Below, piece after piece: positions 12,629 through 60,924 of a stretch of 64,000 nucleotides of DNA. The notes under the pieces were generated by a model. The model was not told the DNA's origin and did not search any database. It worked only from the letters and a program-made list of their open reading frames with translations. Made by a program: the position numbers and the translations under genes. Source of the DNA: Isoetes taiwanensis (taxonomy: Eukaryota > Streptophyta > Lycopodiopsida > Isoetales > Isoetaceae); NCBI GenBank assembly GCA_021234155.1, contig JAJEKV010000013.1, positions 5,336,775-5,400,774 of the forward strand, read 5' to 3'. Within the stretch, counting starts at the first letter, position 1, and each line of letters begins with the position of its first letter.

Positions 12629-13930
12629 GTGTATATGGCTTCGCTCATGTTGGCTCCACAAATCAAAGATACAACTTCGCCGTGGTTGTCGAACTTCATC
12701 CGGGGAACAGAGGAGGGTGCTGTTGTCAAAGTCAGTTGGGAAAAGTGCATGTTGCCAAAGCATTTTGGCGGCCTTGGAATGATCAATTTTCTTTTGCAGA
12801 GCAAGGTGATGATTTCTAAGTTTATTTGGAGAATTTTGAATAATGTGGATGAGTCCCCGGGTTCCCGTCTTGTTTATCAGTCTTTGCAAATGTGCATTTC
12901 TTTTGGGTCTCGGTCTCTTTGGCCACTTTTCCCATGGGCTCTGTTTTATCCACTGACCGCATACCCTAATGCGTCCCCATTTCTTAAAGGATTGCTAGTT
13001 GCATGGGAGACCGTACAATCTCTGTTTCATTTTCACCATCTTGCGCACACTAGCACTACTGCAAGTTGTTGGTGGATTCCATTGGACGGTGGTCCTCTGG
13101 TAGCTTCAGTCCACCCATTGACGCAGCGTCGATGGAGAGCAGCAGGTGTGCATATGATATCTGATTGGTATAATAATCAAAGGCAGTTGCTGACATGGGA
13201 AGAGTTTAGAGCTAAGTTCCTCCTTTTAAGGTGGGATCGAGCTATTTGGCGGAAGGTGTCTTCAATTCTTCCTCCAGTAGCACAAGTGGATGACCCCCAG
13301 CCTTGAGTAGTTCATGAGCGTGTCAAAGCAGATAAGTTGGTGAATTCCATGTACAAGGTCTTGCTTGATGCTGACGTCTTGCCTCTTTCGTCCAAGTGGC
13401 CTTTGGCCATTCCTAGGGATCGGCAAAAAGCAGTATGGAAATGGGTATGGGATAAACTACTCCATCCCAAAGTATCTGTTTTATGGTGGCAAGTTACTCA
13501 CCGTTGTCTGCACGTTAATATTCTGGTGCACAGATTTCGTCCAGAGGTATCTGCACTTTGTCCCTTATGTGCACAGAGGGACGAGACAATTGAGCACTGC
13601 TTCTTCCTATGTAGACATGTCAAACATGCTTGGTTGTGGCTTCAAGGCCTCTTTCATTGCAATTTGAATAGCCAGGTGTTATTAGCAGTCTATCCAAGTA
13701 GTTGGGATAATTTGGCAAAAAGGGCGTTTCATTTGGCTTCTGCATGGATCATTTGGTCCATTTGGAAAAGAAGGAATCTTCTCATATTCAAAGGTCTTGC
13801 TTGTTCAGATGCACAGATCCTTCTTGATGCCCAACAACGAATTGTCAAAGCATTCAGGTGCTCATCAATTGCTAATGAGGTGAAGAGCCGTATTTGGGAG
13901 CACTATCTTCAGATTCAAACTTACTTATGA
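12629..13930 (+). pseudogene. L1 ORF2 C-terminal region with zf-RVT
   Basis: Two long open pieces (12629-13306 and 13337-13930) cover the C-terminal third. The first has SWEKCMLPKHFGGLGMINF, the conserved block after the RT thumb. The second holds the zinc-binding reverse transcriptase region (zf-RVT): WWQVTHRCLHVN, then CPLCAQRDETIEHCFFLC with a Cys-x2-Cys...His-x4-Cys layout, and WIIWSIWKRRNLLIFKG. Only one stop separates the two pieces, so this end is better kept than the N-terminal half. The stop at 13930 is followed by about 140 bases of 3' UTR and the A-tail. Confidence 0.88.
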
Positions 13931-19157: not shown

Positions 19158-19775
19158 TTTGGGGCCACCACAATGCTCTGGAACAGGTAAAGATGGCACA
19201 CTACAAACAACACATAAACCCCACCCTGCTTCCACAGCTCTACCTGCGTTCTCAGTTGCCCATGAAGATGCGCAGGATCATCGCGTCCATTCGAACAGGG
19301 GCCCACCATCTTCGGCTTGAGACGGGTCGGTGGATTGGAGAGCCGCGTCAGGACAGGCTTTGTCAGTGTTGCCCGCTGGGGGTTGTTGAGGATGAAAGCC
19401 ATGCCTTCCAGAGTTGTCCAGCCTATAGTCAGATTCGGGCTCGCTACACCCTCTTGGTGCGACCTGGTCTGCCACTGCACGAGCTACTCAGTACGCCGTC
19501 AGTTCGATCCCTTGGCTCCTACCTCCAGGAGGTTTTGGATCTGCGGACTCACCTCTGTCCCCGCGCGCCTACTTGAGGTGCCGGGAATTCATGTGTATAT
19601 GTATATTTGTACAACTGCCAGCAGGCTTGTTGCTGCGACGTTTTTTCCCTCGTAAGGGGGTCTTTTAATCCGGGTAGCAACGGGCTTGCTGCACCCGTGT
19701 AATTTGTGTCCCATAGGCCGATTGGCCTCCGCGGACGATAAAAGAACCTTCCTTCCTTCCTTCCTTCCTTCCTCA
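19158..19775 (+). mobile_element. LINE-A copy, 3' part only
   Basis: This 5'-truncated copy keeps the C-terminal zinc-binding region in one good frame (19136-19576). LPMKMRRIIASIRTGAHHLR leads into ETGRWIGEPRQDRLCQCC, then VEDESHAFQSCPAYSQIRA: the Cys-x2-Cys...His-x5-Cys pattern of zf-RVT. The stop at 19576 is followed by a 3' UTR with TTTTTTCCCTCGTAAGGGGG, GTCCCATAGGCCGATTGG and GATAAAAGAA. The tail is (CCTT)n at 19747-19774. It is the best-preserved LINE-A C-terminus in the window, so probably one of the younger copies. Confidence 0.85.
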
Positions 19776-42398: not shown

Positions 42399-44367
42399 AA
42401 ATGTGCATGGAAATTTTGGCATTACAGTAGGCACCACATATCTGGAACATCACATAAATGGAGCGTGTATCAAGACATTTCTTTGTGAGAATGCCTACTT
42501 TAATTTCATTGATAATGAACACCTGCACTATGGTCTGTACTCTCAAAATATGGAGTTCAACATTAGAAAGGCTCTAAAATGGATTGAAAGTAATGGAAGG
42601 ATGCCTGTCAAATGTAACTATGCAGGGGAATTAGCTGCCATCAATTTTAATGTCTTTGTTGACGGTGTTGGTCAAGGTCGAGGCGTCATCTCTGCAAAAA
42701 TAAGAAAAGGAGCATGGGTACATTAGGGCAATAGAGCATTCTGACCATGAAATTGTTAATAGGGATAAATAGCTGATTGTTTATTGCAAAGACAAGGAAA
42801 CTGGTTGCTTTCATGAATTTAGAAGAATTTGTTATGAAATATACCGATATGACTTTTTTAATAAAATGTTAGTAAAACTTATGAGGGCGGGCACAAGATC
42901 TAAGTATTTGGAATTGATGGGCAAATGGTTTTATGCCCTCAGAAACCACAAGGCGACGACGAAAGTGGTAGTCGTGGAGTCGCCACCGAAAGTGGTTTTG
43001 CAAAATAAGATATAACCCCCCTGCCCATCAATTACCAAGTGTAATGCATAGTTGGGGTGCAATTATGTAGAATAGAGGAGCTTACAATTAACATTTTACA
43101 TAAAAAAAGCTCTTTCTATGTTATAATTTACATGTAATTATGGATATGGCAGTAAATGGATATTTTTGGTCCTTCTACAGTGTATGAAAAAGGATTACCC
43201 CCCAAAAAAAAAAAAAAAAACCAATCAAAAATCAGCCAGAAAAGAGGACAAACATGAAAGGATCCTACTACATGATTATCTTGTATCCCAGTGAATTCAA
43301 GGGCCCAAGATTGTAACAATTCTGCTTCGAACTCGACATTTTGTAACAAAAGGTTGATTTTCAATAAAGTCTTGCTTCAAAAAAAAAAAAAAGATTACCA
43401 AATCTTCCTAAACATTAGAATAGGATCCCTTAAGCTAAAACATGTAATTTTATGCCGCTGAGTGAGAATTGTGAAAATCTTATATCCTATATGTTTCAAT
43501 CAATATGAAATTTAGGATTTCTACATATTTTGAATCTTTGTTACTATAGACAATGCAAGCCTTCTATAAAGGCTTGCAAATTGGATCAAAATGGAGAACC
43601 AATCGAGGAAAATTGACTGCCAATAGTGCAAAGAAGAATAATTTCAAAAAAAAAGAGGGTGGAAATGGCCAAGAAGATCAAGAAAAATAGTGCTGCCCAT
43701 TTTTTTCCCATTTTATAAAAAAGCTCTAACTCATAATGAACGGATTTTGTTGTATAAAAGCTCTTAAAGTCATAATGTAATTGCAAAGTTTATGTTTCAT
43801 GTTAACATCAAGATGAGAAGGAATTTAGAGAAATGGCTATTGGCTATATTGCCTTTCAAACTGCATGCCGAGAAACCTGAGAGTGGGCCATACCATGTTG
43901 TGGTGATGATGGTTGTGAAGGCAACGACGTCTGCGGAGAAGAAATGTGGATATAAATACTCTTCGGTGTTTGAAAATATTGAGGTATTTGGTGCACAGGA
44001 GTGTGATGCAGTGATTGAGGTTGAAGCAATTTCTACAATTTGGAGGCGAACCTGGTCGTGAAAAGATGCGAGGAGTAGGAGGTGCTGAATGAGCACGCCA
44101 ACAAAATTGACCTCTTTCAATGTCATAGTCTCCTTCATAAGGATCTCGAGCAACTTCCTCGCGTTGATGGGTGATCCAATGGAGCCGCAGTTTGGCAGAG
44201 AAGCTCTTCCTGGGTGAAAGTACGAACAGACATCTTGAAGTCTGAAGAAAAGAACGAAGACCCGATGGCGGCGACATTGTTTAGGGTCTGGGTTCGGGAT
44301 CACCTGTAAGACAGCCCTCTGTGAGGATCCTGGGATCAAGTAGACAAATCCTTAATATAGTGTGACC
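42396..44367 (+). repeat. Repeat A, copy 2
   Basis: Matches 35790-37813. It carries a 107-codon open frame at 42403-42726 equal to the C-terminal part of the 262-codon ORF, AATAAA at 43363-43368 and an A-tract at about 43379-43392. In the ORF part nearly all differences from copy 1 are G-to-A or C-to-T, as expected from deamination of methylated cytosine. A small deletion near 42412 removes the bases for about five residues. Confidence 0.88.
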
Positions 44368-44689
44368 AACTAAAGAAGGGTCCATAATAAAGTAACCTTT
44401 TATTTCCAATACATTTGGCATTGTTTCCAAGACCATCCATTGGCAGCATATAGTCCAAAAAGTTTAAAGTTTACTAAATCTTTCAACACAATTACCCAAA
44501 AAGGGGGCATGCGATATCGATGAACGTAAAAAAGCAACAAAATGATATTAGTTTACAGAATTTCCCTCTTATATATACAACAATAGCCCTCTCTACCACA
44601 GCGATTAATGTCGAAACAAAATGACGTTTTCTACAATGGCACCATATCAAAGGAGAAAAAAAATCGCTGCTTACCCTCTATTTGTTGCA

Positions 44690-44874
44690 TTAGCCACATT
44701 GTGAAATGGTAACAACACTATGAAGTTGTCGCGTCAATGCAATTTCAAACTTTTCGAGGATTTTTATAACCTGCCAAAAATCTAGATGTTTATCAGGATT
44801 AGATGACCAACAATGCTGCATCAATTGTTGTAACACTGCAGGGCAATTGGGGGGCACCTCAGGGCCTTTCTTGC
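44690..44874 (-). pseudogene. Raf-like kinase, last-exon fragment
   Basis: Plant Raf-like (HT1/STY-type) kinases are Ser/Thr/Tyr kinases acting in CO2, light and stress signalling. After a good splice acceptor (pyrimidine run then TTACAG at about 44875-44880 on the minus strand) the frame reads GPEVPPNCPAVLQQLMQHCW, SSNPDKHLDFWQVIKILEKF and ends QLHSVVTISQCG stop at 44690. This is kinase subdomain XI: the 'CW..NPDKRPDF..I...LE' signature. The conserved Arg-Pro is His-Leu here, which argues for decay. The kinase N-terminal fragments at 47.2 and 54.0 kb are on the same strand and upstream, so this may be the end of the same gene; exons for the middle of the domain were not found between them. 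Confidence 0.75.
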
Positions 44875-44983
44875 TGTAACAACAAAGAAAGAAAGAGACA
44901 ATAAACTTTAGAAACAGCTTGTTAGTTCTTTTCATGTGAAGAATGTGCACTTGATGGCTAAAAAATGTTTCGTAGACATGCAC

Positions 44984-46556
44984 TACAAACGAAAAAGCAC
45001 ATTAGGGCAAAGAACATCATAAAGATAACCTACCCTGCAATGGTTATGGGAAAGATAAAAACGACACTCAATATTATGTTTTGAGAAACTGACAGGTTTA
45101 AGATAACAATGGGCTACCAAGAAATACATTCAGAGTTTAAAAGCATGGCATACAGAATTTCCATAATTCTCAAATTGTATCTCGCATATACAATAAACAG
45201 TATTTGCAGCCTGAGATAGTTGTCTTTCACTAATGGTTGTGATTTAAAAATGGATACACAAAAAGAATGATAACAAAACAAGAAGTAATGATATGCATAA
45301 GACTTGATCAATGACACTAGGGGTTGTTATATTGATGCGGGTTCAAATCAGCTGCTTAGGAAGAGCCATTATTGGCCTCTCTTCCATTCTCTAGTTAGCA
45401 ACAAAATGCCAAATTTGCAACTGCCTCACCTATCAGAAATACCGTACAGTTGCTTCAAAAGTGCAAGTAAAGTGGAAAATTGATAACAATTGGAGTTCAG
45501 AAACAGTCTTTTGGATTAGAGGTTAGCATGCTTCTTTGGATTGTTGAAGAGGAGAGTCTACATCCACAACCATGTGAAAGCATTTGCAAAGAGATCTCAA
45601 TTTTCACAAAAGACTTATGCTGTGAAGAAACAAATTTTTGCATACCTGGGATGTTCGATGTCCAGGCTGCCCAACAATGTTGTCCAAGTCATCTGCATAA
45701 TGTAGAAGTGACGATGAAAAAATGTGCACCTTTGATAACTTACCCCTTTAGGAAAACTAGATTGCTAAAAGTTCAAGGGTATAGAAGACGCGAGAGCGGA
45801 ATTGCATGGCTACATACTATCTTATTGTTTTATGCATATAAGCAAATGACATGGGTAAATTAAGATGGGCAGTATACTAAATGATGGGAGTGTTCGCTTC
45901 TGCTCTACACACAAAAGAATAGTTTCTACATAAGGAGCAATACTTCAAGGGGGGAATCAAGACAACAATGCTCAACGACCAAAACAAAGTTTATAGTAAT
46001 TTTGTACTTGGCCAAGTACAGGCAATGATAAGATGGATATCTTTTGCTATATGATAGAAGCAAAGCATCTCCCACCATCTGTTGTGATTTGCTACACAGT
46101 GCATGTCTTCTCTTTATGTCCTCCAAGCTATTTTGCACTTCAAACTCTTAAAGCATTCCCATGCACATAGATGAGATAATGAATTCAAGCTGAATAAAGG
46201 GCTGAGTACAAGGTCACCAAGACTAGATGAGAACACAATAGCACCATGTACATAGGCAAAGTTTTACAGTTTATCTGCCCCATCGTGCATGAGCTGATCC
46301 CAGCACATAGGATCTTATGATGGAGTACACAAAATTTATCCAAAACATAGATTAATAATCATTGTTCATCTGACAGAACGGTCAGGACCAACGACATTTT
46401 AAAATCCATATTTGATTATTGCAACCGTAATGGTTCTAAATGAGAGTTAAATGGAACCTATACATATGAAAGGTGAATGGTTATTTTATGTTACAAATTT
46501 CATAAGCCATCAGCTCTATTCAATTGTCGATTCTATTTCGGCGCTTCAGTGCAATA
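44984..46556. other. No gene recognised between kinase and MinD relics
   Basis: I looked on the minus strand for the missing kinase subdomains (HRD, DFG, APE) and did not find them. A plus-strand 127-codon ORF at 45480-45863 and a minus-strand 70-codon ORF at 45926-46138 look like chance. Confidence 0.4.
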
Positions 46557-47151
46557 TCAACCACCTATGGAAGGTAGAAAACCTCTCTTGGAAGGGGTTT
46601 CCTCAATCAAGACTGCTTTCATGCTGTCATATTCCACTAACCTCCATGCCGCCTGCTCTAGTGCTAATCCTGCCAGAGTTGGAGTCTTTTGCAATACCAA
46701 TGGGAACTCTTAATAACTTCAGAATCTTCTGGTATCACACCTAGCAAAGGACTCAAGCATCTCCTGTATATCTAAAACAGACGTCAAGGCAAGTGGGTCT
46801 GCGTTCTTGCCTGATACTCTGATCATTCTTGTCAAGAATGGAAAATGGGTCCACAAAACCTGTAGAATCCGGTTCTTCTTGCCTTGACGTAGTACAATGG
46901 CATGGGGGCAGCAAGAATGGCTTCCCCCATGCCATTCTACATAACATCATGTCTTCTCCTCTTATCATGTCACTTTCGACCCTGTTTACTACCATCTTAA
47001 TGTCCTTTATGCCATCACACTCAAGAAGGCCAGTCACTCTATCTGCATCTCTCAAACTAGTGATGTCAGGAGTCGTAACAAAAACCACCTCGTTTGCTGG
47101 TGTTATTGCAGAAATGAAACCAGCATCAATTCTTGCAGGGCAATCTATCGG
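46557..47151 (-). pseudogene. minD: MinD (chloroplast division-site ATPase), copy 1, broken
   Basis: MinD is a ParA-type ATPase that positions the plastid division ring. The minus-strand frame reads DCPARIDAGFISAITPANE, VTTPDITSLRDADRVTGLL and VVNRVESDMIRGEDMM. After a 160-base interruption it resumes with VLDIQEML, LLGVIPEDSEVIKS, LAGLALEQAAWRLVE and ends KRGFLPSIGG stop at 46557-46559. This covers the C-terminal half of plant MinD, without introns, as in known intronless plant MinD genes. The P-loop half is absent. Breaks: two adjacent hairpins at 46781-46940, a deletion after VIKS removing STNRG, and a frame shift near LESF. The usual Gly of DCPAGIDAGF is Arg. Immediately upstream, with no spacer, lies a Raf-like kinase fragment on the same strand, so MinD is fused into a chimera. 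Confidence 0.9.
46781..46940. repeat. Two adjacent hairpins interrupting MinD copy 1
   Basis: Hairpin 1 has perfect 13-base arms ACGTCAAGGCAAG (46781-46793) and its complement (46878-46890), with an 84-base loop. Hairpin 2 has 17-base arms with one mismatch (46892-46908 and 46924-46940; core AATGGCATGGGGG). Together they split MinD between GEDMM and VLDIQEM; copy 2 lacks them. They look like two small MITEs or one compound element; no clear target duplication. Confidence 0.8.
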
Positions 47152-47164
47152 AATAAATGCACAA

Positions 47165-47588
47165 AGAAGGTTCAGAAAATCTGATCTTGATCTAGTTTAC
47201 TAGCAAGCTCTTCATTATCATCTGGAAATCTCATTATTTTCACTGCAACAGGTAAGCCATTGTAGATTCCTTCATAAAACAGTCTACTATAAAACAGGCT
47301 ATATGTACCCTGCAAATTTCAACCCTAAAATAGTCCTTTCATATCTATCGTCCAATCTTCAGCCTCTCCCATTGCTTCTTCATCACCAGAGGGCTCCAGA
47401 TACTTAGAGCAGGAAATACGGTGCTTCAAATCCTTCCCTTTCTTTATTATTTTGCCAATGTATATAGGGCCTTGGAGGCGAAATAGTAAGCTAAGATTAT
47501 GCATGCAGGCATGTAGAATAAACTGATTAAAACCAAACAATTGCCGAGCTAAAGAATTATCGAACTGAAGTTGGGTCTCCATGGCCAC
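47165..47588 (-). pseudogene. Raf-like (HT1/STY-type) kinase N-terminal fragment, copy 1
   Basis: The minus-strand sequence reads GDEEAMGEAEDWTIDMKGLF, then after frame changes a glycine-loop remnant and YNGLPVAVKIMRFPDDNEEL, ASKLDQDQIF. This matches the start of HT1-like kinase domains (EWTADLSKLF..., YRGxYxxxxVAVKxxRxPDxxEE, LEDQFxREV). The VAVK lysine that binds ATP is present. The upstream part to 47588 (METQLQFDNSLARQLFGFN) could be the kinase N-terminus with its start codon, but this is uncertain. A stop follows MKGLF, so it is dead. It joins the MinD fragment directly at about 47150-47165. Confidence 0.8.
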
Positions 47589-48484
47589 AGCCGATTGTGA
47601 AGCACTCAGGTTGCTGCTTCTGGATGATCTGGGTAGCTAACAGGGTCTTCAAAGTAACGGCGAAGGGAAGACAAAACCCAATTGTCGAGCAAAGCATATG
47701 GCGGAAGAGAGAATTTCCTTAGATTTTCTATTTTTCGTAGCTGTTAGATGAAGAAATTTAACAAATCATACCAGATAGAAGCAGTTTGATGAGAAATTTG
47801 GTGGACTACTCTGGTCGTTGGAGGTTTGGTCATTAGGGCCGGAATGGTCAGGCTTGCGGCCGAAGGAATTACTTGGCTTTTCTATTTTTCCTAACCGTCG
47901 ATTCATAAATTAGAAAATCTAACAGTTGAGATGGAAAAAAACTGACTTGGCACGACACGTGGCATAGCTAGAAACGCACAAAAATGGACAGCTCGATTAG
48001 GCAACCCTGCTAAAAAAGTCCCTTTTAATAATGTTACCCTTTGCCAATGTTTCACCGGGCCCATTTTCATGCAAGAAACCTCATGCCTGGGTCCGTTTCC
48101 GATGCAACCTTGTTTTGCAATCTGTTTCTTCTTTGCCTTAGGCTATCACTCTTTTGCTTGATGTAAGAACTAAACTGCTTGTGCCACCATGGTTGTCATA
48201 TCAAGATCTTGTGAGAACAAAGAAATACAATGGCGAATGAATTGATTCGAGATTGGGAAAATGATCGACAACCCTTTGGGACTAAATTCACAAAATTGTA
48301 AAAGACACTTAGTTTGCATTCTGCCATTTCATCTAATCGACTATATGGCACAGGTTTCTTCATCCAATCATATTTCGCCATGTGGCACAATTTCTTTACC
48401 TGAATGTCAAACTGGAGTGCAGATTCACAAACAGAGTGCAGATTCATCACGACCACCGGTTCTTGAGTTTACCTCATGTTCCGA
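47589..48484. other. No gene recognised
   Basis: Possible upstream region of the kinase relic; no promoter element that I can defend. Minus-strand 86-codon ORF at 48196-48456 without recognisable content. Confidence 0.35.
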
Positions 48485-48593
48485 AGCATTTACCTTTCAT
48501 TCCAGAAGATTGTGGCCGTAGAATGCAAACTAAATTTCTTTCACAGCATTTACCTTTCATTCCAGAAGATTGTGGGCGTAGAATGCAAACTTA
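48485..48593 (+). repeat. 60-base tandem duplication
   Basis: Two units start at 48485 and 48545 and share AGCATTTACCTTTCATTCCA, AGAAGATTGTGG and CGTAGAATGCAAACT, with one difference (c/g). The length is a multiple of three and keeps a plus-strand 70-codon frame open (HLPFIPEDCGRRMQT twice), which may be chance. Confidence 0.85.
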
Positions 48594-48599
48594 GTCACG

Positions 48600-49434
48600 T
48601 TAATAGAATGTCATTCCGGGTGACATTCCCCATGTGTCCACAAGCCGCTGCGCCTTAGCGCATCAACCTGTTTCCACTCTGGGAATGTCCCATAAATTAG
48701 CATCGATTGCCATTCGAATTGTATTGTTTTGAAAGATCTGGATGTGCGCGACCTGGATATTAATTCTACACACCAGCACTGGCTTCAAAAATCCCCTTTG
48801 TTAGTAGGAGTACCTCTCATAGGATTAGGGTACCTGGAGTGTGGATCGGGCAAGTACACAGCTAGAAAGCCATATTTTGTAATATGATGCAATTCTGCAA
48901 CCCCATCTTATAAAATGCAGGTTAGCAAGCTGATATTGGTCACTAGAGAACCAATAGTTAAAGACATCTCATATTAGATTAGATTATTTTTGGAGCAACC
49001 CAGAGGTGTGCAACATTTTACTATAATCAGATATGATTGTGAATTTTCTAACAAGCTCCCATGTCCGAAAGCAAAGATTCAATCCATTCAAGGCCAATGA
49101 TTTCAAGAAATCGCTTCGAGGCATTGCCAATATTCCAGAAACGCTCAAAGATTCTTGTGAAGAACGCATTAAAAGTTTGATCCACATCTACCATCTGGTA
49201 TTGTATCATCCATCATGTGGCACAACATTATAGCATAGACACACACAACACGGCCCAATAATATAGGATAGACAGAACAAACTTGATTGCACATATGTTG
49301 CATCATTGTTTCATAGCCTTCAAAGTTGCTTTTGCTTTCGGGCTCATCCGGCAATTCCAAAGGTAAAACATAGAAATTCACGTAATTACATGTTCCAAAA
49401 AGCATATGTCCTTCCCCGCCCTTTTGTTTTGTAC
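48600..49434. other. No gene recognised
   Basis: Several short ORFs on both strands (48984-49438), none with recognisable content. Confidence 0.35.
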
Positions 49435-49620
49435 TCAACTTTTCTTTTTACGCATTGCTCGCTTGCAATAACTCGCTTTGTCGAGACTCAAGCTACATAT
49501 GTAACTACCCCATTTCTCCCGAATGCCGGAGAAGTGAAGTATCCGCTCGCACTCTTCTCCAAAAAGTTGATGTTGTACCATGCCCATTCCATCTCCCAAA
49601 GCCCGCGCTAAAATTAACCC
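49435..49620 (-). pseudogene. Unknown coding-looking segment
   Basis: A minus-strand open frame of about 60 codons, GLILARALGDGMGMVQHQLF, CERILHFSGIREKWGSYICS, SLDKASYCKRAMRKKKS stop. Its composition is protein-like, with a basic end, but I do not recognise a family. It has the same strand as the MinD/kinase relics. Confidence 0.3.
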
Positions 49621-50100
49621 CATAGAAAATACCAAGGCTTTTATTACGCACTAAATAATAGTTGCAAAGTCTCATAAGCAAGAATTTTAATACTTACTTT
49701 GTATGGATAAAAACCAGATCAATAAAATATTCTCAATTGTCTTCGAGGGAATATGTGTAGATGTTCCAAGTAATAAGGGATCCAAAATGCCCTGCTTCAA
49801 CATCTCGACCTTCAATAGAACATGTCAGAAGATGAACAGTACACAAACGTTGACAACACGTTACAGTATATCCACTTACAGTTTGCATCAACCGCCACAT
49901 ACTTGTGTCATGAATCCCTTCACTCACCACTAAAAGAATGTGACAACCGAGGAAAGAAACACTTCAAGCTAGAAATGTTCCTTAGATAACAAAGTGAGAG
50001 ATGTAAGGCTTCAGCAACTACTGTGTTACTCCCAAAGACTTGACACACTCTTGCTAGCTATTGTCAATACAAAAGAAAAATGTACGACATTGAACAGTAC

Positions 50101-50220
50101 CTATATTCCCATTAACTCATATGCCAGCTCTGCAGACAAGGTATCACTACCCAACATTGACACTGATGAAGAACCATCAGGGCGCATGAGATCAGCCAAC
50201 ATACTTGCGCTGTATAATGG
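50101..50220 (-). pseudogene. Unknown exon-like segment
   Basis: Minus-strand frame LYSASMLADLMRPDGSSSVS, MLGSDTLSAELAYELMGI stop. Looks coding but family unknown. May belong with the segment at 50420-50583. Confidence 0.3.
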
Positions 50221-50377
50221 CTATTACTGAGAGTGAGAGAGCTTCCCATAATGGCAATGGAAAGAGAAAAATGTGATACAATGCTGGTTATACAACATGC
50301 ATTGAACCTACATGTTGTGTTAGCAATGAAAAGTTATGCAACTCAATCATTCCAGCAAATGCATGTCTCATACAGTT

Positions 50378-50477
50378 AACAAGCTTGGAGAGTTGTCATG
50401 GGTTCACATGGAAGATGGCAAACCACAATAAACAAGCTTGGAGAGTTGTTCCGGGTTCACATGTAAGATGGCAAACC
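50378..50477. repeat. 53-base tandem duplication
   Basis: Units start at 50378 and 50431, both with AACAAGCTTGGAGAGTTG, GGGTTCACATG and AAGATGGCAAACC. A few substitutions distinguish them. Confidence 0.85.
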
Positions 50478-50583
50478 TCTGTTCAAGGAGGATGAACCTC
50501 TCAGCTGCCATCCAAAATTCCAAGCCCGTGGTGCAGTGTCTTGCCATTGCTTTTGTTTCATCACTTTGGACCGGAAAGGGAGG
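50420..50583 (-). pseudogene. Unknown exon-like segment joined to MinD copy 2
   Basis: Minus-strand frame with VQSDETKAMARHCTTGLEFW, MAAERFILLEQRFAILHVNP, EQLSKLV, continuous from the MinD copy 2 break point at about 50584. It reads like part of a real protein, family unknown to me. It replaces the MinD C-terminus seen in copy 1, so copy 2 has a different third partner. Confidence 0.4.
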
Positions 50584-50706
50584 CAGTATACCTATAGGGA
50601 ATCAAAGACTAGTACTCTTAATAACTTCAGAATCTTCTGGTATCACACCTAACAAAGGAAGCTCAAGCATCTCCTCAGATATCTACAAATGTACATCATG
50701 TCTTCC
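50584..50706 (-). pseudogene. minD: MinD copy 2, part 1 (C-terminal side)
   Basis: Minus-strand sequence with the end of GEDMM, then the QEMLELPLLGVIPEDSEVIK region, with a stop shortly after KSTSL. It matches copy 1 closely but lacks the twin hairpins, and carries a short substitution after GATGATG. The rest of the MinD copy lies at 53767-53985, beyond the LINE-A insertion. Confidence 0.85.
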
Positions 50707-53700
50707 TCCGATCTTAGCCGCTACTACTTTCCCCATGCAGAGTCCCTTCTATCACAACCACCCGAGGTGGATGATGGACCCGTGATGTCGATCTATATGA
50801 TGACATACAAAGAAGACAAGTGGATGGGCGAGTCATGCTCCTTGAGACTTCAATGTGCAGACAGGGGTGGAACAGGCCATGCGGCTGGACCCCCTCGCGG
50901 ATGACGTGCTGCAGTTGCGTCCCGCAGAGGCACCTTGCACACGGCACTCGATGACAAAACAGTCACCCGCCGCGCATAATTGCTCCCGATGTGCGTACCT
51001 TTGACCTCGCTTCATATGCAATGGCCTACCACAATGGTCCTCTTCCCACGGGTACACTTGCGCACAAGACAATCACGGTGGCGTAATCCAGTGTCGTGAG
51101 ATTATGTCATAGTGGTCGCAAGCAGATGTACACCTTGTCAGCCATTTTCACGCCGAAGACGACAAATGAGACGAGGAGGTCAATTTCGCATCACCTCCCA
51201 CTCTATGTGAAGCCGCCCTGCCAATCGGCTACGCCCCTCGAAAGGGCAAGCATTTGGCCGACTTCGCTGGGCGCTTTGATTATGAGCAGCGAGGGTTATG
51301 CCGACATGCTCGCGTAAGCCCCCCGACAGCTTAAGGGCCATTACACGCTTGAGCAAAGAAAACCGGTGAGCCGGTTGAGCTCTCTAAATGTGGGCCGACA
51401 GTGCTTTGGGGAGACCTCCCCATGCCGAGATCGAGGCCACAACCTTCCCGTAAATGATGGTTTGATGCTTCAAGTAAGGAACGAAACGCCAAGACTGCCT
51501 CATCGTGGGATCAGACACGCTGAAGCTCAAAGCCACCAGCCATTACCGCGGCCTTCCCCTAAGGAAACAAAGGCAAGGTACCGGCAAGGCACTATGAGAA
51601 ATGTTCGCCCATCGACGCACCCGAACTTTCGGGCGCAGGGGTACTCAGAGACCAGCAATGTGCCACGGGAACATCACGGGCGGTGTAAATGGGAGCAAGA
51701 CTCGCAGAACACCTTTATGATCCCCCGAACACTAACAGATGTGCCCCTCAAGAATATGGCCTTCGGCCGGGTGATCACAAAAGAAGATGTCGGTGAGGGA
51801 CCGCAATGGGCCGCTAATGGGAAGGCAAAGAGACTTGACGGCCCGCAGTTTTTTTAGTTGCTCAAGTGGGCAGATTAAAACCATGGTGCCCGCTCTGCCG
51901 CGACCGCTCAACAGTATTTAAGAGGGTTTTTCCTGGCCATGGACCACAAGCGTGATTGTTCCGATCTACAAGGTGGACCCATACCGCCCAGCCAATTACC
52001 GAACCATCATGGTCACCAAGAGTTTGCCAAGTCGCGGCGCAGTGCATTCTAACAGCCGGGTAAACTGGGATGGGCGAGGCAAAAGTCGTGGCACTTACCT
52101 GTGCAAAGCCCGACCTCTATATTCACCATTGATCACATCTTCACACTCGTGGCCTCGGGTCGAGGACAACAGAACCGCCGAGGACCTCAGATCGCTGCTT
52201 TTGTGGACTTTGCAAAGCTTTCTACACAAGCACTCGAAAAGTTGTGGGCTTTTAGATTGCACCATCCGGGGCTCCCTATGGATCTCAAGACGAGTTGCAC
52301 AGTCGCATGCAACCGAAGGACAGTCATTTTCCAAAGAGTATCTCGAAGTTAGAAAGGTTGTCCTCTCACCCACACTCTTTGACTTTACATTGACTAGCTT
52401 GAAAACCCGGGCTTGCCGCCAATGGGGGGATCGGTGATACGCCTCTTGCACCAGTCATCCTACAGCCTCATCTATGCGATGATGTGGACCTCTTGGCCCA
52501 TACACCAGAGGGCATGCATGCACACCTAGATGCCCCGACACATTCTCGCCAGCGACGGACATGCGGTCAACCTCGGCCCTGCTCACTTATCGTGGGCAGA
52601 TGGTAGAGGGTCACACCCGCCTACAAGTACCGGGTTGGAATTTCCATCCTCAATGTATTGGGATGCATCCATTCACCTTCGGGTGACCGCAAGTTGGAAG
52701 ACGCCAGACGCGAACTCAAAACAATAGTCACAGGCGTAGCCAGATGACCACTAGTCACATTTGTTCCGCAATCGGTGGAGCCAGGCCTTCCAGATGGGGT
52801 CGAGGTGGGGGCACAAAGGGTGTCTTTGGCTTAACTTGGAAACCACTTAGAGCAGGTCCGTATATATTTTTGACGCTGGCACTTGGGGTCAAGCCCCCCG
52901 CCCATATCGATCTTGTTGCAGAGACAGATTCATGCCCTTTGCAAAGATGCGGCCCTCGATAGACACACATTGTTTATTTCCGTATAGGTGGCCAAAGATG
53001 GGCTTACACTGGCCCCACACTTGGCTTACGCTGGTATGGCGATGAGCCCGCAATCCACTGTGGCTTTTGAAGGACAAGAGAGCCCTGGGCATAGCGCGAT
53101 CGAACGTAAACGCATATAGGTGCGCCCAGTGTGATAGACGCCGGGGATAGGCCGAGGGGGTACTTGGACTTTGTTTCGGGAAGCCTGGGACCACCATGCT
53201 CGAACAAAAGATGGCACACTACAAACAAGATAAACCCCACCCCGGTTCGAGGCCCCATGCCTCTATCTCGCTTCGGGCCACCCATGAAGAAGCGCATGAT
53301 CATCGCTGGCCCATTCAACAGGGGCACACCCATCTTCTGCTTGAGACGGGTCGGTGGGTTGGAGAGCCGCCAGACAAGTTTTGTCGTTGTTACTCTACCG
53401 GGGTTCTAAAGATGAAAGCCATGCCTTCCAGAGTCGCCCGGCCTATAGTCGATTCGCTCGCTTACATTCTCTTGGTGCGACTGTCTCGCCGCATGAGCTA
53501 CTCAAGACGCCATCGGGCCGATCTCTTGGCTCCTACCTCCAGGAGCTTTTGATCCGCTGACTCACTTTCCTCGCCCCCCCCTCGGTGCCGGAATTCATGT
53601 GTATATGTATATTTGCACAGCCTGCCAAAGCCAGTTTGTTGTCGCGACGGTTTTTTCCCTCCTAAGGGGTTTTTTAATCCGTAGCAATGGGCTTGTCGCG

Positions 53701-53766
53701 ACCCGTAATTTGGGTCCCATAGGCCGATTGGCCTCATGATGATAAAAGAACCTTCCTTCCTTCCTT
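50707..53766 (+). mobile_element. LINE-A copy inserted in MinD copy 2
   Basis: A 3.06 kb plus-strand LINE. It starts within the endonuclease (DLYDDIQRRQ-like region at about 50790, remains of GDFNAR at about 50845) and continues through a linker. The reverse transcriptase shows PANYRTIMVTKS at about 51990, FTLVASGRGQ then AFVDFAK at about 52195-52215, and a YADDVDLLAHTPEG-like box at about 52475. The zf-RVT end reads LETGRWVGEPPDKFC and ESHAFQSRPAYS (53339-53450). The 3' UTR is conserved and a (CCTT)n tail lies at 53751-53766. Frames change very often, so it is dead. MinD sequence flanks it directly on both sides, and the site in copy 1 (46.95 kb) is uninterrupted by LINE-A. Confidence 0.88.
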
Positions 53767-53985
53767 ATCATGTCACTTCCCGACCATGTTTATCGCCATC
53801 TTAATGTCCTTTATGCCATCACACTCAAGAAGGCCACCACTCTATCCTCAGATTCTCAAACTAATGATGTCAAGACTCATAACAAAACAACCTCGCTTTG
53901 TCGGGTATTATTGCAAGAATGAAACCAAAGATCACCGCAGGGCAATCTATCAGAATAAATGCACAAAGAAGGCTTACAAAATCTG
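53767..53985 (-). pseudogene. minD: MinD copy 2, part 2 (middle)
   Basis: Minus-strand counterpart of copy 1 at 46960-47151. The blocks for PIDCPA...DAGF, TTPDITSLRDADRV and LLECDGIKDIKM are recognisable through several small deletions. It is more decayed than copy 1. It is continuous with the kinase fragment upstream, as in copy 1. Confidence 0.8.
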
Positions 53986-54258
53986 ATCTCGATCTAGTTT
54001 ACTAGCAAGCTCTTCATTATCATCTGGAAATCTCAGGATTTTCACTGCAACAGGCAAGCCATGGTAGATTCCTTCATAAAACAGGCTACCATAAAACAGA
54101 TTATATGTACCCTGCAAATTTCAACCCTAAAATAGTTCTTTCATATCTATCGTCCAATCTTCAGCCTCTCCCATTGCTGCTTCATCACCGGAGGGCTCCA
54201 GATACCTAGATCAGAAATACGGTGCTTCAAATCCTTCCCTTTCTTTATTATTTTGCCA
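53985..54258 (-). pseudogene. Raf-like kinase N-terminal fragment, copy 2
   Basis: Matches 47165-47457 nearly base for base, including the LPVAVKI and FPDDNEELASKLD parts and the same frame break after the DWTIDMKGLF block. The match ends at 'attattttgcca' (54258), while copy 1 goes on differently, so the duplication boundary is here. The conserved junction with MinD shows that the fusion is older than the duplication. Confidence 0.8.
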
Positions 54259-54386
54259 TAATGTTCTAATTATTTTGTTTCGTATTTGGGGAGGATATCT
54301 CAGGCATGGTTTGGCCTAGATTTTGGCTGGTATTGTATGGAAAATCGTAGGAAAAAGGTATTTTTTAGCTTATTTGAGCTGCTTAT

Positions 54387-54709
54387 TTGGCCGACAATTC
54401 CAAGAATGGGTTGCTTGTTGGCTTGAGGCGTCCTAAAAATCGGCTAAGGCATGGTTTCAGAATAGGAGGCATGCCTCTTTCTTCTTTGGGCAGGGGTGGC
54501 TTTCCAGGCAAGGGTTGCACTGATGGAATCTGCTCCGGATCCGAAATGGCGGATTTCCTAACTTCTGGCGGTTTAGAGTAGATTGGATCAGAGACAAGAA
54601 AAGGCGCAGATTTTCTGGTGAGGCCGGCATGGCCTGGAGCTTCGAATCCTCCAGCCGTGCTGTAAGATGATCTAGTTGCTGCTGTAAGGTGCCGCTGTGA
54701 CGACCTCAA
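54387..54709 (-). pseudogene. Unknown Pro-rich coding-looking ORF
   Basis: A 108-codon minus-strand ORF with GGFEAPGHAGLTRKSAPFLV, DPEQIPSVQPLPGKPPLPKE and MPPILKPCLSRFLGRLKP. Proline-rich, probably disordered. No family recognised. The opposite strand is also open for 64 codons, so coding is uncertain. Confidence 0.3.
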
Positions 54710-56639
54710 ATCTTTGACGACCTCAAATGTGCTGCTTTGACGGCCTCAAATATGCCGCTGTGGCTCTTTTCTGATTTTTTTTTCTGAGAGGAATCAAATC
54801 GGCAGGAAGAAGGGGGCCTTTCTCTGGATCTTGTTTATCTCAGCAGAATACACATGGCCAGACAACTCATTCTCTAATTTTCTTATCCCATCTTGCACAC
54901 TTAGTATCACCCATGGTTTTGTTCTATTATTTCTAGAGGGGAATCCTGAGTTTTATGCTGAAGCATACACCTTGCAACTGGATAGGATTAATTCATAAGT
55001 GTGGTGGTATAAATATAATATTAACTAATGACAGGTGGATGGTTATAGACATGCTAGTAGATAGAATAAACAAATTAGAGGTCGGTATGTCATCATCGTC
55101 AAAAGAATGAATTTTCCATATGAATATGATATTATATACATTTATGATAAAGAGAAGTTGGTGAACTCGAAGAAGTGAATTTCCACTTAGAAATTTATGG
55201 CGGAGATCGTGGCCATAAATTTCTAAGTGGAAGTATTCTTTTTCGGCTTTTTCTTGAGAGAACATGGCTCCTTTCTTCACAGAAGCAAATGCTGCAGTAG
55301 CGGATGGAGCCAAGGCCCCGATCTACCATACTTTCTTATGCTAATAGAAACAGAGCACTTCAGAAAGCTGGGATACTGCCGTTTACATGCAACTCTGATC
55401 CATCTATGTAACTCTAATTTTGATTTTAAGCTCCGCTTTTGTTATATTTTTTGTTTTAACTGCATTGCACCCATAGGCCCCTTGGTCTTGAACAATATAA
55501 TCATTCAATTTAATTCAACTATTAATAATGTATATTGTATTTCTTGGTGTATAAAGGTAGATGGCAGTGCCAACAGAGCGCCGCCACAAAATTTCAATGA
55601 AAAAATGCTAAAAAATCACCAAAAAATCACTTGAAAAAATCTTAAGCAATAATCCTAAGTAATTTGAAGGTGACATTGGTTACGTAATTTGCTATTGATA
55701 CATGAAATTCTCCTAACCCTATTAATACATGCTATTTCACCTATTCACGTAATGTTAAAAGCTCGATATACCAAGAATTGAGATCTCATAATGTTAATGA
55801 TCAAGATCCCCATGGTTTCATATATGGAAACCTGCCACCAAGAGGTGGTTTCTAGTCGAACCGCCACGACGCCGCTGCCCGCATGCGTGCCGCCAATCGC
55901 CCGGGTTGGAAACCACTGATTGGTGGCACGTTACAATATGTAAGCCGCATGTATCTAACGGTTTCTGGACACGTGTCACATCTTCCATGTCAACACCCCT
56001 GTTTAAAGTTTTGCGAAAGCAGAGTGCATTTTGGTGGAGATCTTCCTTTTGCCACACTTTTGGTGGCTAAAAGTTTGGATGCTATAATACTGTGCCAGAA
56101 ATGGCGATCAGGAGCTCGTTTTGAAGCTTATGGGCAAGTCGAGCAACCGCGGGGAAGGATTCTGGCAAACAGGAGGTGAGCATTGAAGAAAAAGGCGACA
56201 CCATAGCCAGGGAGGGAGAAATCTTGACAACAGAAAAACAAAAAAAAAAAAGATAGTACAAATGCTTATCGCAAAGGAGCTGCCCTTAGAGTAGGAGCCG
56301 CCAAGTAAAGGTGTCCGAATGGCGCCGCTTTAGAGTAGGTAAACACAACATTATCAAGAATAACAATACAGGAAAAAAAGTGGAACTCATTAGGTATCCA
56401 TGGTTTACGTGGCTTAAACCTTTCAAAATGGGTAAATATTAGTTGACAACATGTTTCAAAGTATTCCTTAGCTTAAGTGACCATGGTTTCTCATAGATGT
56501 TGACTTGCTTTTTAAGCTTATTGGAATGTGAAGAATGGGATATTGGCACATGCATATGGTTCCATCCTTTGTATAAATAGGGTAATGGAAGGACAAAGAT
56601 GCAACAGAGGCACAAATTAAAATATTAATAAAGAGTAAT
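54710..56639. other. No gene recognised; short direct repeats
   Basis: 54715-54765 has three 'gacg(a/g)cctcaaat' units. 55181-55232 is a hairpin. A plus-strand 135-codon ORF at 55227-55634 and ORFs near 55818-56179 have no recognisable content; 55850-56160 is GC-richer than its flanks. Confidence 0.4.
55181..55232. repeat. Perfect 21-base hairpin
   Basis: Arms at 55181-55201 and 55212-55232 are exact reverse complements (each includes CACTTAGAAATTTATGG on one strand), with a 10-base loop. Pairing continues outside after a 2-base bulge (GAAT/ATTC). It could be a microRNA-like fold, a small foldback element or a rearrangement scar. Confidence 0.9.
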
Positions 56640-56991
56640 GGTAGCACGTTTGAAGTGGATTTGTTACATACCTTCTGAGACACAAGATCAGAAGATACAG
56701 GAGCTCCGAGCAACCATTACCCAACAAGGCAGGGGCCTCCATGTCGAGGTCCATGAACAATTACGGCAGTGCACGAATGAGTTGGCCAAGCAGCAGAGAT
56801 TTCAACAGGAGCTAGGCTCCCGACTCCAGGCAGCAGAGGCAGCAACACAGGGCCAGACAAGCACACATGCCCCACAGCCCACAAGTCTCCAAACAAAGTG
56901 CATTGCACACTACCGCGCCCATCTCGCACACCACACCGCCTTTGCCGTGAACAGCCCACACACCCGCATAACAGTATCACCGGACAACTAA
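56638..56991 (+). pseudogene. LINE-A ORF1-like coiled-coil piece
   Basis: Reads SETQDQKIQELRATITQQGR, VHEQLRQCTNELAKQQRFQQ and ELGSRLQAAEAATQG: regular leucine/hydrophobic spacing of a coiled coil rich in Gln and Glu. A coiled coil ahead of the endonuclease is expected for a LINE ORF1 or an ORF N-terminus. The first 15 residues may belong to flanking DNA, so the start codon at 56638 is unsure. A similar piece is not visible in the other, truncated copies. Confidence 0.55.
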
Positions 56992-59900
56992 TGTTGCCTC
57001 ACACTCAATGAGCAAAGCAGGAGCAAGGTCACACATCATAATGTGGTGGTAATGTGGACTTCTGAGGAGGCAAGAGAGGATCTCACCAAGCACATCCAGA
57101 TCGATCCTATCTCGCATGGCATTTCGCATACAAAGGCACATTGTTGGAACAAGCCACCTTGGGGCTCAACGCATTTATCACCCGCTGTCATCTTCACGGC
57201 GGCGCATATATGCGAAAGCGCGGAGGCAATTCCCGCCGGTAGGTAATTGAAGGGGTCTACCTTGTATGTCGACTCAAGATCTTACTCCGATGCAACAGAG
57301 TCCCCGCCAGAGCAAACCGCCTAAGTCGAGCGCCCGTCGTCGTGGGGTGCCGCAGTTCGTCCGAGGCAAGCTTTGCATTTTTAGCCGGCGCCGCCGAGGT
57401 CACCGATGCAAAGGCGCCAAGCCGCTGCCAATCCCGGCATCGCCACCAAGACTTATCGCCTCCCCGCCGCTTCCAATTGTTCTCGCATCCGCGTTCAAAG
57501 GCCGCGACACCGCCCCCCGCAAATCAAACAGATCATCGAAAGGCCTACATCAAATGCCAAATAAATAGAACCGTACCTGGATGGTATCTTGAACCGTTTG
57601 GTTTCCCTTGCAGGAAGGGGAGAGTCTCAACTCTATTGCTCCAGATATGGATCTCATTTTCCTCATGGAAACATGGGAACATGCAGGCAATGCATCGCTG
57701 AACCTCCTAGGCTATCCGTGATTTCTGTTCAATGAGTGCACAGCAAGCGAGGCATGGCGGGTTGCCTCGCTACTATCGCGGCAACCTTGGGGCACCCGGC
57801 CTCGCCGCACAAAACGTAACAATCGCTACTTGTGGATGCGCCGCGCAAAGATGACAAGGGCAACATTCTCTTCATAGTAGCATGCTACTTTCCACATGCC
57901 GAGCAACTTTTTATAGCACTCATTCGATGTTGATAGGTTGGAGCCCTATGTCGATCTATATGATGACATACAACAACACAAACAGCTTGGGCAAGGTTAT
58001 GTTGCTTGGCGAATTTTAATGCACGACAAGAGCCGAAAGGTCCCCCAAAATTTGAGCCCCCGGCAGAGGACGCCTTGCGCTTGAACCCCCAGGCGGCTTG
58101 GTCAAGAATATCGACGACAACCATATTTCGCGCCATGGCAAGCGCTTGTTGTTGCCGGGTAGTATCTTTGACCTTGTTATTTGTAATGGGTTGGCACAAT
58201 GGCCATCTTCTAGCCGGCCGTGACTTGTAGAGATGTGAGAACCAAGGGGTGGCTCCAAAGGTGGTGGATTGGTTGAAGAACAGATCCAAACCCGGTTACC
58301 CATTTTTCCATTGGAAATGTATATCTCGACGCAGGAAGTGGGACTCGACCACCAGCCCCTCGCTCAGGCATCTCCATTGGCAAGCTCCCCGGCATCTACT
58401 ACCTCAACACCCTGTGTGCCCCAACCTGGCCGACTACTTAATGTGCAGGGACCTATGCTCGCCTTTCTTGAGCATGACTGGCAGACTGCCGCAACTCCTC
58501 ACACTTCAACAAAGAATTGCCAGCCTAACTCCACCTACTTCTGACAGTTGCTAAGAGATGTTTTGGGAGAGGCCGCTCACGGCGAACCTCGGGCGCTACC
58601 ACCTTCCCCCGCAACAGATGGTTCGATGATGAGTATTGAGAGTTCAAATGCACACTCCGGCAAGTCACTGATCCCACCTCCTGCCCATAGGCCATCAATC
58701 AATACCGCTCCTTCCTCAAGAACAAGAAAGCCAGATACCTTGCAGAGCATCAGCAACAGATGTTTGGTCTCCTGGATCGGCACCCCAAGACATTCTGGAG
58801 AAGGGACTTGAGCAAGACTGCACAGCCTACAAGGAACATCACCTCGGAGCAATGGGTATAATACTTGCAACAGCTTTACGACTTGCTCGGGGTCCGGACA
58901 CCAGTCCCTCCACAGATAGGCATGGTTCTGGTCATCACAGAGGGGGGTGTCATCATGGGCCTACAATGTCTAGCTAATGGGAAGGCAGTAGATTTAGATG
59001 ACATGCAAAGCAAACTTCAAATGGGCTGGCCTCCACTGCGCCTATCCTCACGCCATTATTCAATAAAGCATTGCAAGAAGGCTTCCTTCAAGTAGGGGAC
59101 CACTAGTAGAGTTGTGCCCATATACAAGACAGGGACCCTCAATGCCCGCCAACTATCGCATCTAATATGGTCAGCTCTTTTGCAAAATTATTGGTCGGCA
59201 TCCTTTGAGCAAATTGTACACAATATGGGCAGAGGGAGGTAGATGCGAAGCTCACACAAAGTGTGCTTTCGCCCGTGCATTCCACCATTGATCATATCTT
59301 CACTCAAGACATTGATTGAGGGATAGCGTGAATCACCGACAAACCTATATTGTTGTTTCGTGGATTTCGCAAAAGCTTTGACACAGCATCACGGACAAAG
59401 TTATGGGACAGATTATGCACCGGGACCCCCTTGACTTGCAAAATGCAAAGATATAGGCTATAATGAGGTATGCTCAAAGCCAGATCACATCGCCGACAGC
59501 CGATAATCAGTAGTATTGAGTGCAGTTCCTTTCCCCCACACTCTTTGGCCTATACATTGACCAGCTGGAAGATTGGCTCTCTGAGCATGGAGGTGCGGGT
59601 GCCCATCTCATGCATCACACAATCCGATAACTTATATATGCTGACGATGTCAACCTCCTGGCCTATACTCCAGAGGACATGCAACGTCACCTGGATGCTC
59701 TTGACACTTTTTGCCGGTTCACTGGCATGCGAGTTAACTTGGCCAAAACTAGGGTGCTGTTAGTTTCATCATCCCGTCAGCCAAGGCTTCCCTCATTCAC
59801 TTATCAGGGAAAGATGTAGAGGTGGCTCCGACCTACACGTACTTGGGGATACTACCACCCATTGGGATGCTGCCATCAGGTTGCGGGTCACGGCGGGTTG

Positions 59901-60924
59901 GAATTATATGCCATGCAGAACAACAGCCACAAGGCAGAGTTGTATGCCTGGGGCCACCACCACACTTGTTTCGGCCTTGGTCGAGCCGGGTCCTTTGTAT
60001 GGGGCAGAAGTGTGGGGTCCGTGATATCCTCAACACCGAATGACCTCGGCGCAGGTGCGTAAAGCTTCTGGCATGAGCCTGGGGTAAAGTCCACGCTCCA
60101 TACCGCATCCTACCCGGAGAGACAGTTTTCTATCCCTTCAACGGGCCGCATTGGAACGCCATATCATTTACTTCCATAAGGTGGTCGCTATGGGTGATAC
60201 ACGTTTGCCCAACCTTGCTATGGCGATGGGTCCCCAATGCCTGAAAGCCTACTGGAAGGACAAGCGCTCAATGGTTCTCATGCTGGGGTGTACAGGCAAA
60301 CAGATGCATACATGTAAGACAAAGAAAGATCACAAGGAACTTAAGTTGTACCTAGATGCTACTTTCCTTCAAGCAAGCTCGGGATGCGATGCTTCGACGC
60401 ACGTTAAGCTGGCACACTATCAGCAGCAATTCAATCCTAGGCTTATGAGAGGCCCACACCAGTACTTGTACACCCAGTTGCCCATGAAGAAGCGCAGACT
60501 TATAGCTTCCATTCACATGGGTGCACGTCGCCTCCGCATTGAGACAGACGCTGGGATCGGAAGCACGAGCAAAGGCTTTTGCTGCCACCAAATTGTGGCG
60601 CATTGAGAATGAATGTCATGCCCTCCGTGATCGCCCTTCAATGTTTGCCCATATCCTAGAGCCAGTATGTTCGACATTTAGTGCCCGGCTAACCGCTGCA
60701 TGAGTTATTGAATACGGCCGCTGGGTTTGTTGGGGTCATACCTCCGTGAGGTTATGGATGCACAGACTCTTGTGTCCTCCGTGACGTATTGAACCGCCCT
60801 ATATAATTGTACAATGTGGCGGGGTTTTTAATCCTGCCAAGAATACGCTTTGTCGCTTCTTTTTGTTTAGGTCCCATAGGCCAATCACGCTAAAAATCTA
60901 TTCTATTCTATTCTATTCTATTCT
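56640..60924 (+). mobile_element. LINE-A copy, longest in the window, broken
   Basis: About 4.3 kb plus-strand non-LTR element. Order: a coiled-coil ORF1-like piece (56638-56991), a basic Arg-rich linker (57266-57570), endonuclease (57570-58060), a linker ending in KARYLAEHQQQMFGLL-like helices (58700-58860), reverse transcriptase (58860-59830) with YADDVNLLAYTPEDMQRHLD at about 59637, VNLAKTRVL and TYTYLGI, zf-RVT end (60400-60700), 3' UTR and a (TATTC)n tail at 60892-60924. Frames are broken many times. It gives the best view of the LINE-A layout. The left end is approximate and no target duplication was found. Confidence 0.85.
57570..58060 (+). pseudogene. LINE-A endonuclease domain, frameshifted
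   Basis: Pieces in successive frames show the endonuclease fold: DLIFLMETWEHAGNASLNL (about 57650-57700, with the catalytic Glu in METW), NRYLWMRRAKM (about 57825), ILFIVACYFPHAE (about 57870-57905), DLYDDIQQ (about 57955), then GKVMLLGEFNARQEP (about 57990-58030), where the usual GDFNAR has Asp changed to Glu. The SDH box was not located. Broken by several stops and shifts. Confidence 0.7.

Follow-up and report, generated by a model that had tools for sequence, protein, structure and literature searches.

The minus strand of the window (the whole stretch of 64,000 nucleotides of Isoetes taiwanensis DNA analysed here) carries, in two copies with the same junction, a Raf-like kinase exon fragment followed by a C-terminal fragment of MinD. 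It is very probable that these units belong to a multi-copy, out-of-frame chimeric pseudogene that was formed at the DNA level and copied afterwards, partly by segmental duplication. The finding is thus one of ordinary chimeric pseudogene DNA: the kinase-MinD chimera is dead DNA, and its annotation as a kinase-MinD gene is unwarranted. With this result a supposed new domain pairing can be set aside as a false lead; the fusion itself is of little consequence.

Organisation of the two copies in the window

A first-pass annotation of this DNA had described the kinase sequence as running into MinD with the same junction in both copies. This juxtaposition is real: the kinase fragment is followed by a spacer of about 31 bases, and alignment places the first MinD base at 47157 in copy 1 and at 53959 in copy 2. 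The position annotated for the copy 2 junction (53985) was about 26 bases off. Comparison of the window with itself gave 89% identity between the copies over 502 bases, plus a 75-base piece at 91%, a similarity far beyond chance. The features are as follows.

Copy 1
47493..48017, minus: DNA upstream of the kinase fragment; partly present in many dispersed copies, no match in kinase loci L017-L020
47190..47492, minus: kinase exon-1 fragment (Raf-like); 82% to exon 1 of the C1100 kinase (L018), frame-breaking lesions common to other copies
47158..47189, minus: spacer at the join (about 31 bases); ends the kinase frame with a stop, common to all seven junction copies
46947..47157, minus: MinD, first part; TIGR01968 at 81 bits, profile positions 113-185, 94% to the C1034 MinD
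46787..46946, no strand assigned: short high-copy repeat of about 160 bases inside MinD, with internal inverted arms
46557..46786, minus: MinD, last part, through the stop codon at 46557 (DNA comparison)
45162..46556, minus: MinD 3' flank carried with MinD; 88% to the DNA downstream of MinD on C1034
44365..45161, minus: kinase intron 2 and exon 3; 77% to L018, exon 3 match at 44863-44711, also by protein; intron limits inferred from open frames

Copy 2
53990..54258, minus: kinase exon-1 fragment; 83% to L018
53960..53989, minus: junction spacer, the same as in the other junction copies
53764..53959, minus: MinD, first part (DNA comparison)
50706..53763, no strand assigned: GC-rich insert of about 3 kb inside MinD (GC profile and DNA comparison)
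50614..50705, minus: MinD, resumed past the insert (DNA comparison)
50397-50613: stretch beyond the resumed MinD
49332..50396, minus: DNA that in loci L015 and L016 lies directly 3' of the kinase fragment and spacer, without MinD

Copy 1 keeps the MinD C-terminus, as had been proposed, through the stop at 46557 and split by the repeat at 46946-46787. The stretch that follows the resumed MinD in copy 2 overlaps what had been listed as an unknown exon (50420-50583). Positions 50372-50477 hold a direct repeat of 53 bases, and a tRNA scan of the whole window found none.

The identity of the MinD piece is based on the NCBIfam profile TIGR01968 together with DNA matches. The profile match in copy 1 (C941:5383716-5383934, C941 being the contig of the window) reached 81 bits over positions 113-185, which is below the family cut-off, and a Pfam scan of the window MinD frame (46753-47196) and of the L052 frame assigned no family. 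The junction copies resemble plant MinD (the chloroplast division protein described by TIGR01968) in matching the profile from position 113 to at most 211, but they differ from it in consisting of the C-terminal half alone, without the P-loop and with a broken frame. About 1.4 kb of DNA located 3' of the MinD stop in the window also follows MinD at C1034 (88% over 1.2 kb), and parts of this flank match dispersed repeats elsewhere.

Kinase parent and the kinase DNA beyond MinD

With regard to the kinase, which we take to be Raf-like, an apparently intact gene is present on C1100 (L018), where the whole fragment lies inside one uninterrupted exon 1 and exon 2 matches PF07714 with 138 bits; the three other kinase loci read (L017, L019 and L020) have frame breaks or a stop. 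Since the fragment comes from within a single parental exon, the absence of an intron in the kinase piece is uninformative. The kinase gene resumes past the MinD flank, with intron 2 kept and then exon 3, and the homology to the MinD flank ends where the homology to the kinase begins (45161). Kinase intron 2/exon 3 DNA is found directly beyond the MinD flank in the window, C1073 and C1046, and the join between MinD flank and kinase 3' DNA is kept in C889 and C1038, about 11 and about 14 kb, respectively, from the kinase fragment. When compared with plant Raf-like protein kinases (PF07714), the window pseudogene is similar in carrying an exon-1 fragment and an exon 3 that both match the C1100 kinase, and different in lacking exon 2, which contributes much of the catalytic core, and in having a broken frame.

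Junction copies across the genome

In the whole genome (1,658,258,908 bases in 1110 contigs), a query of 401 bases with the join at its centre gave 25 scored matches. The junction was spanned by seven of these, two on C941 (the window), two on C1073 and one each on C889, C1046 and C952; the copy on C952 (5.907 Mb) keeps just 41 bases of MinD. The window and the 17 loci that were checked are free of N. The chimera had been reported as present twice, which is correct for the window and an understatement for the genome. As judged by alignment, one and the same spacer (about 31 bases) recurs in 7/7 junction copies, pointing to one event and bearing out the view that the fusion is older than the duplication. 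C1073 matches the window from 56998 to 44001 piecewise at about 90-97%, and its junction copies are 98.5% identical to window copy 1 and 97.7% identical to copy 2, compared with 91-97% for the remaining pairs. This match over at least 13 kb, combined with the highest pair identities, indicates that C1073 is a later segmental duplicate that brought both copies with it.

Moreover, the kinase fragment by itself is commoner than the junction, with 41 matches in the genome (some being two pieces of one copy). Several of the kinase-fragment loci have a common upstream edge near 48017, and copies end at different places, corresponding to 47272, 47158, 47117, 46408 and 44363 in window coordinates. On the minus strand of L015 (at about 4829) and L016 (at about 4651), kinase and spacer are followed by the DNA of window positions 50396-49332, the departure occurring exactly at the first MinD base. 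Either these two loci lost MinD through a deletion that happened to end at this point, or they preserve a stage preceding the arrival of MinD; they speak against a simple order of events. A spliced-out intron was considered for C1054, C941:10.1 Mb and similar copies, in which two matches lie 1.6-3.7 kb apart, and was rejected as the C1100 kinase has one exon there; because the stretch is a single exon in that gene, the gap in the C1054-type copies is taken as an insertion. Long open PPR-type frames were seen by eye near kinase-fragment loci (L020 1567-4092 and L021 7604-9901).

Reading frame and lesions

In all seven junction copies a stop within the spacer ends the kinase frame, and MinD lies out of frame with it by 2, so that the shared ancestor of these copies was most likely out of frame already. 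One open frame through both kinase and MinD was found in none of the seven. Judging from these sequences, a kinase-MinD fusion protein would not be expected from the junction copies, and, with the stop and frame offset, the novel domain pairing that had been envisaged for an intact copy is likewise not supported.

We surveyed lesions in 14 kinase-fragment copies, a subset of the larger number in the genome search. Relative to the C1100 gene, a single-base loss of frame is present in 12/12 copies retaining the site (C1046 and C952:15.97 Mb are without that stretch), and the same short internal duplication occurs in every one of the 14. The C1041 kinase locus has a single-base loss at the same place, but without the duplication. 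As copies without the MinD join have the same lesions, the kinase piece was already dead in the common ancestor of the copies surveyed. The order of the lesions and the MinD insertion is one that we infer: whether the death of the kinase preceded the arrival of MinD depends on whether the join-less copies were always without MinD or once carried it.

Origin of the chimera

The layout, the common junction, the broken frames, the kept intron and the copy number were observed directly. Since MinD and its flank are bounded by kinase DNA on both sides, MinD lies inside a copy of the kinase gene. About 0.7 kb is missing from this kinase copy, namely the last part of exon 1 together with intron 1 and exon 2. 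Their place is taken by about 2 kb of genomic DNA from a MinD gene without introns (its 3' half plus 3' flank), the left join being made through the filler of about 31 bases. A capture of DNA during double-strand break repair would fit both the collinear order kinase - MinD - kinase and the filler. The chimeric locus was then copied elsewhere, with C1073 as a later segmental duplicate. In plants, repaired double-strand breaks with filler or captured DNA are known to have given rise to chimeric pseudogenes. The window chimera is like these in having genomic DNA of one gene lodged within a second gene, a short filler, missing host sequence and an out-of-frame arrangement, and unlike them in having been copied subsequently to several loci.

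A retrocopy or captured cDNA, as had been suggested earlier, implies that a MinD cDNA inserted beside a kinase exon. The MinD piece does lack introns and occurs in several copies, as a retrocopy might; the near-full-length MinD on C1034 is however likewise intronless, about 1.4 kb of 3' flank was carried along, an A-run as expected from poly(A) is absent at the boundary between MinD flank and kinase near 45161, and kinase intron 2 is kept in 45161-44365. We consider this origin very unlikely. Still harder to credit, indeed hardly credible, is that the window copies are decayed copies of a functional chimeric gene: one junction common to several copies would suit such a gene, but the stop and frame offset occur at every junction. 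The outcome that had been named beforehand as a refutation, a dead fusion by insertion, is the one borne out. Contrary to what had been expected, the assembly yielded no intact parent gene for MinD.

Pack-MULEs and Helitrons capture gene fragments, join them and move them. That a DNA transposon of this kind captured, joined and spread the kinase and MinD fragments would agree with the dispersal of the 41 kinase-fragment matches, with the upstream edge near 48017 common to several loci, and with a frame for a MULE transposase located a few kb away from MinD on C1034. The window units share with such elements the joining and dispersal of pieces of unrelated genes, but differ from them in that no long (at least 30 bases) bracketing inverted repeats or common ends were found. 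The sole inverted pair of at least 30 bases found in window 44000-57000 is at 55168-55245 and does not bracket the units; the copies end at differing places, and the C1073 segmental duplicate is much bigger than the unit. Spread by a transposon therefore seems improbable, though less so than a retrocopy.

MinD, MinE and FtsZ in the assembly

An intact MinD did not turn up in the assembly in searches by profile, by protein and by DNA (24, 14, 8 and 10 candidates, all scored), and 0 profile matches were over the family cut-off. The only near-full-length MinD found is the intronless copy at C1034:16961041-16962259 (L014 4540-5760, minus), which is broken by indels and duplications and whose P-loop, on reading of the sequence, appears altered. 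In addition, three N-terminal MinD scraps are located on C942, C960 and C1083 (L052, L053 and L056), those on C942 and C960 having lost the P-loop through internal deletion. By eye, the frames beside the three scraps resemble each other between loci. A candidate at C1064:3.367 Mb was rejected as MinD, being a NUBPL-type protein instead. A search for a second MinD via the upstream flank was swamped by repeats, and among the 40 of 1112 candidates that were scored, C1034 alone lay within 1 kb of MinD. The 2.2 kb read at C1038:8.86 Mb contain the MinD 3' flank, neither MinD nor a gap being present. Of the control searches, that for MinE gave 8 matches, all 8 over the cut-off and with open frames; that for FtsZ gave 41 matches, of which 28 were without stops and 0 over the cut-off, the low scores arising because exons score separately.

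According to the table published in PMC8566536, the I. taiwanensis assembly has 1658.30 Mb in 204 scaffolds and 909 unscaffolded contigs, the scaffolds (1494.58 Mb) being built from 1211.25 Mb of contigs, and the genome BUSCO is 94.5%. On these figures, we take the difference of about 283 Mb between scaffolds and contigs, about 17% of the assembly, as gap. Given such gaps and the retained MinE, it is likelier that the assembly lacks an intact MinD than that the plant does. It is accordingly doubtful that I. taiwanensis has lost functional nuclear MinD, leaving the broken C1034 copy and scraps while MinE and FtsZ persist. If this were true, chloroplasts would position their division site without MinD; the lack of an intact MinD beside open MinE frames would, if upheld, bear on division-site placement in lycophyte plastids. 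A search of the open-access literature on MinD in Isoetes with chloroplast division found none, and the accessible portions of PMC8964177, PMC8646090, PMC11135702, PMC4015805 and PMC10030945 contain no mention of MinD in Isoetes.

Later insertions in the copies

The repeat of about 160 bases is missing from the equivalent site in C889, C1046 and C1034, and at least part of it is present in the C1073 duplicate. A query with this repeat gave 622 first-look candidates; among the 40 that were scored, the best matches elsewhere were 98% identical, and the sequence at 46787-46946 is perhaps a short element that was recently active. Within the copy 2 insert (about 3 kb), the part at 50713-51084 (plus strand) matches an endonuclease frame of LINE type in L012 (42% over 132 residues), and this L012 frame matches PF03372 in a profile scan. 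Since both the repeat and the insert are present in C1073 too, they are older than the segmental duplication. Elsewhere in the window, fragments of LINE-type endonuclease, reverse transcriptase and related sequences were noted at 6268-6842, 11411-11998, 13313-13600, 19190-19534 and 57602-60546 by their similarity to frames at other loci.
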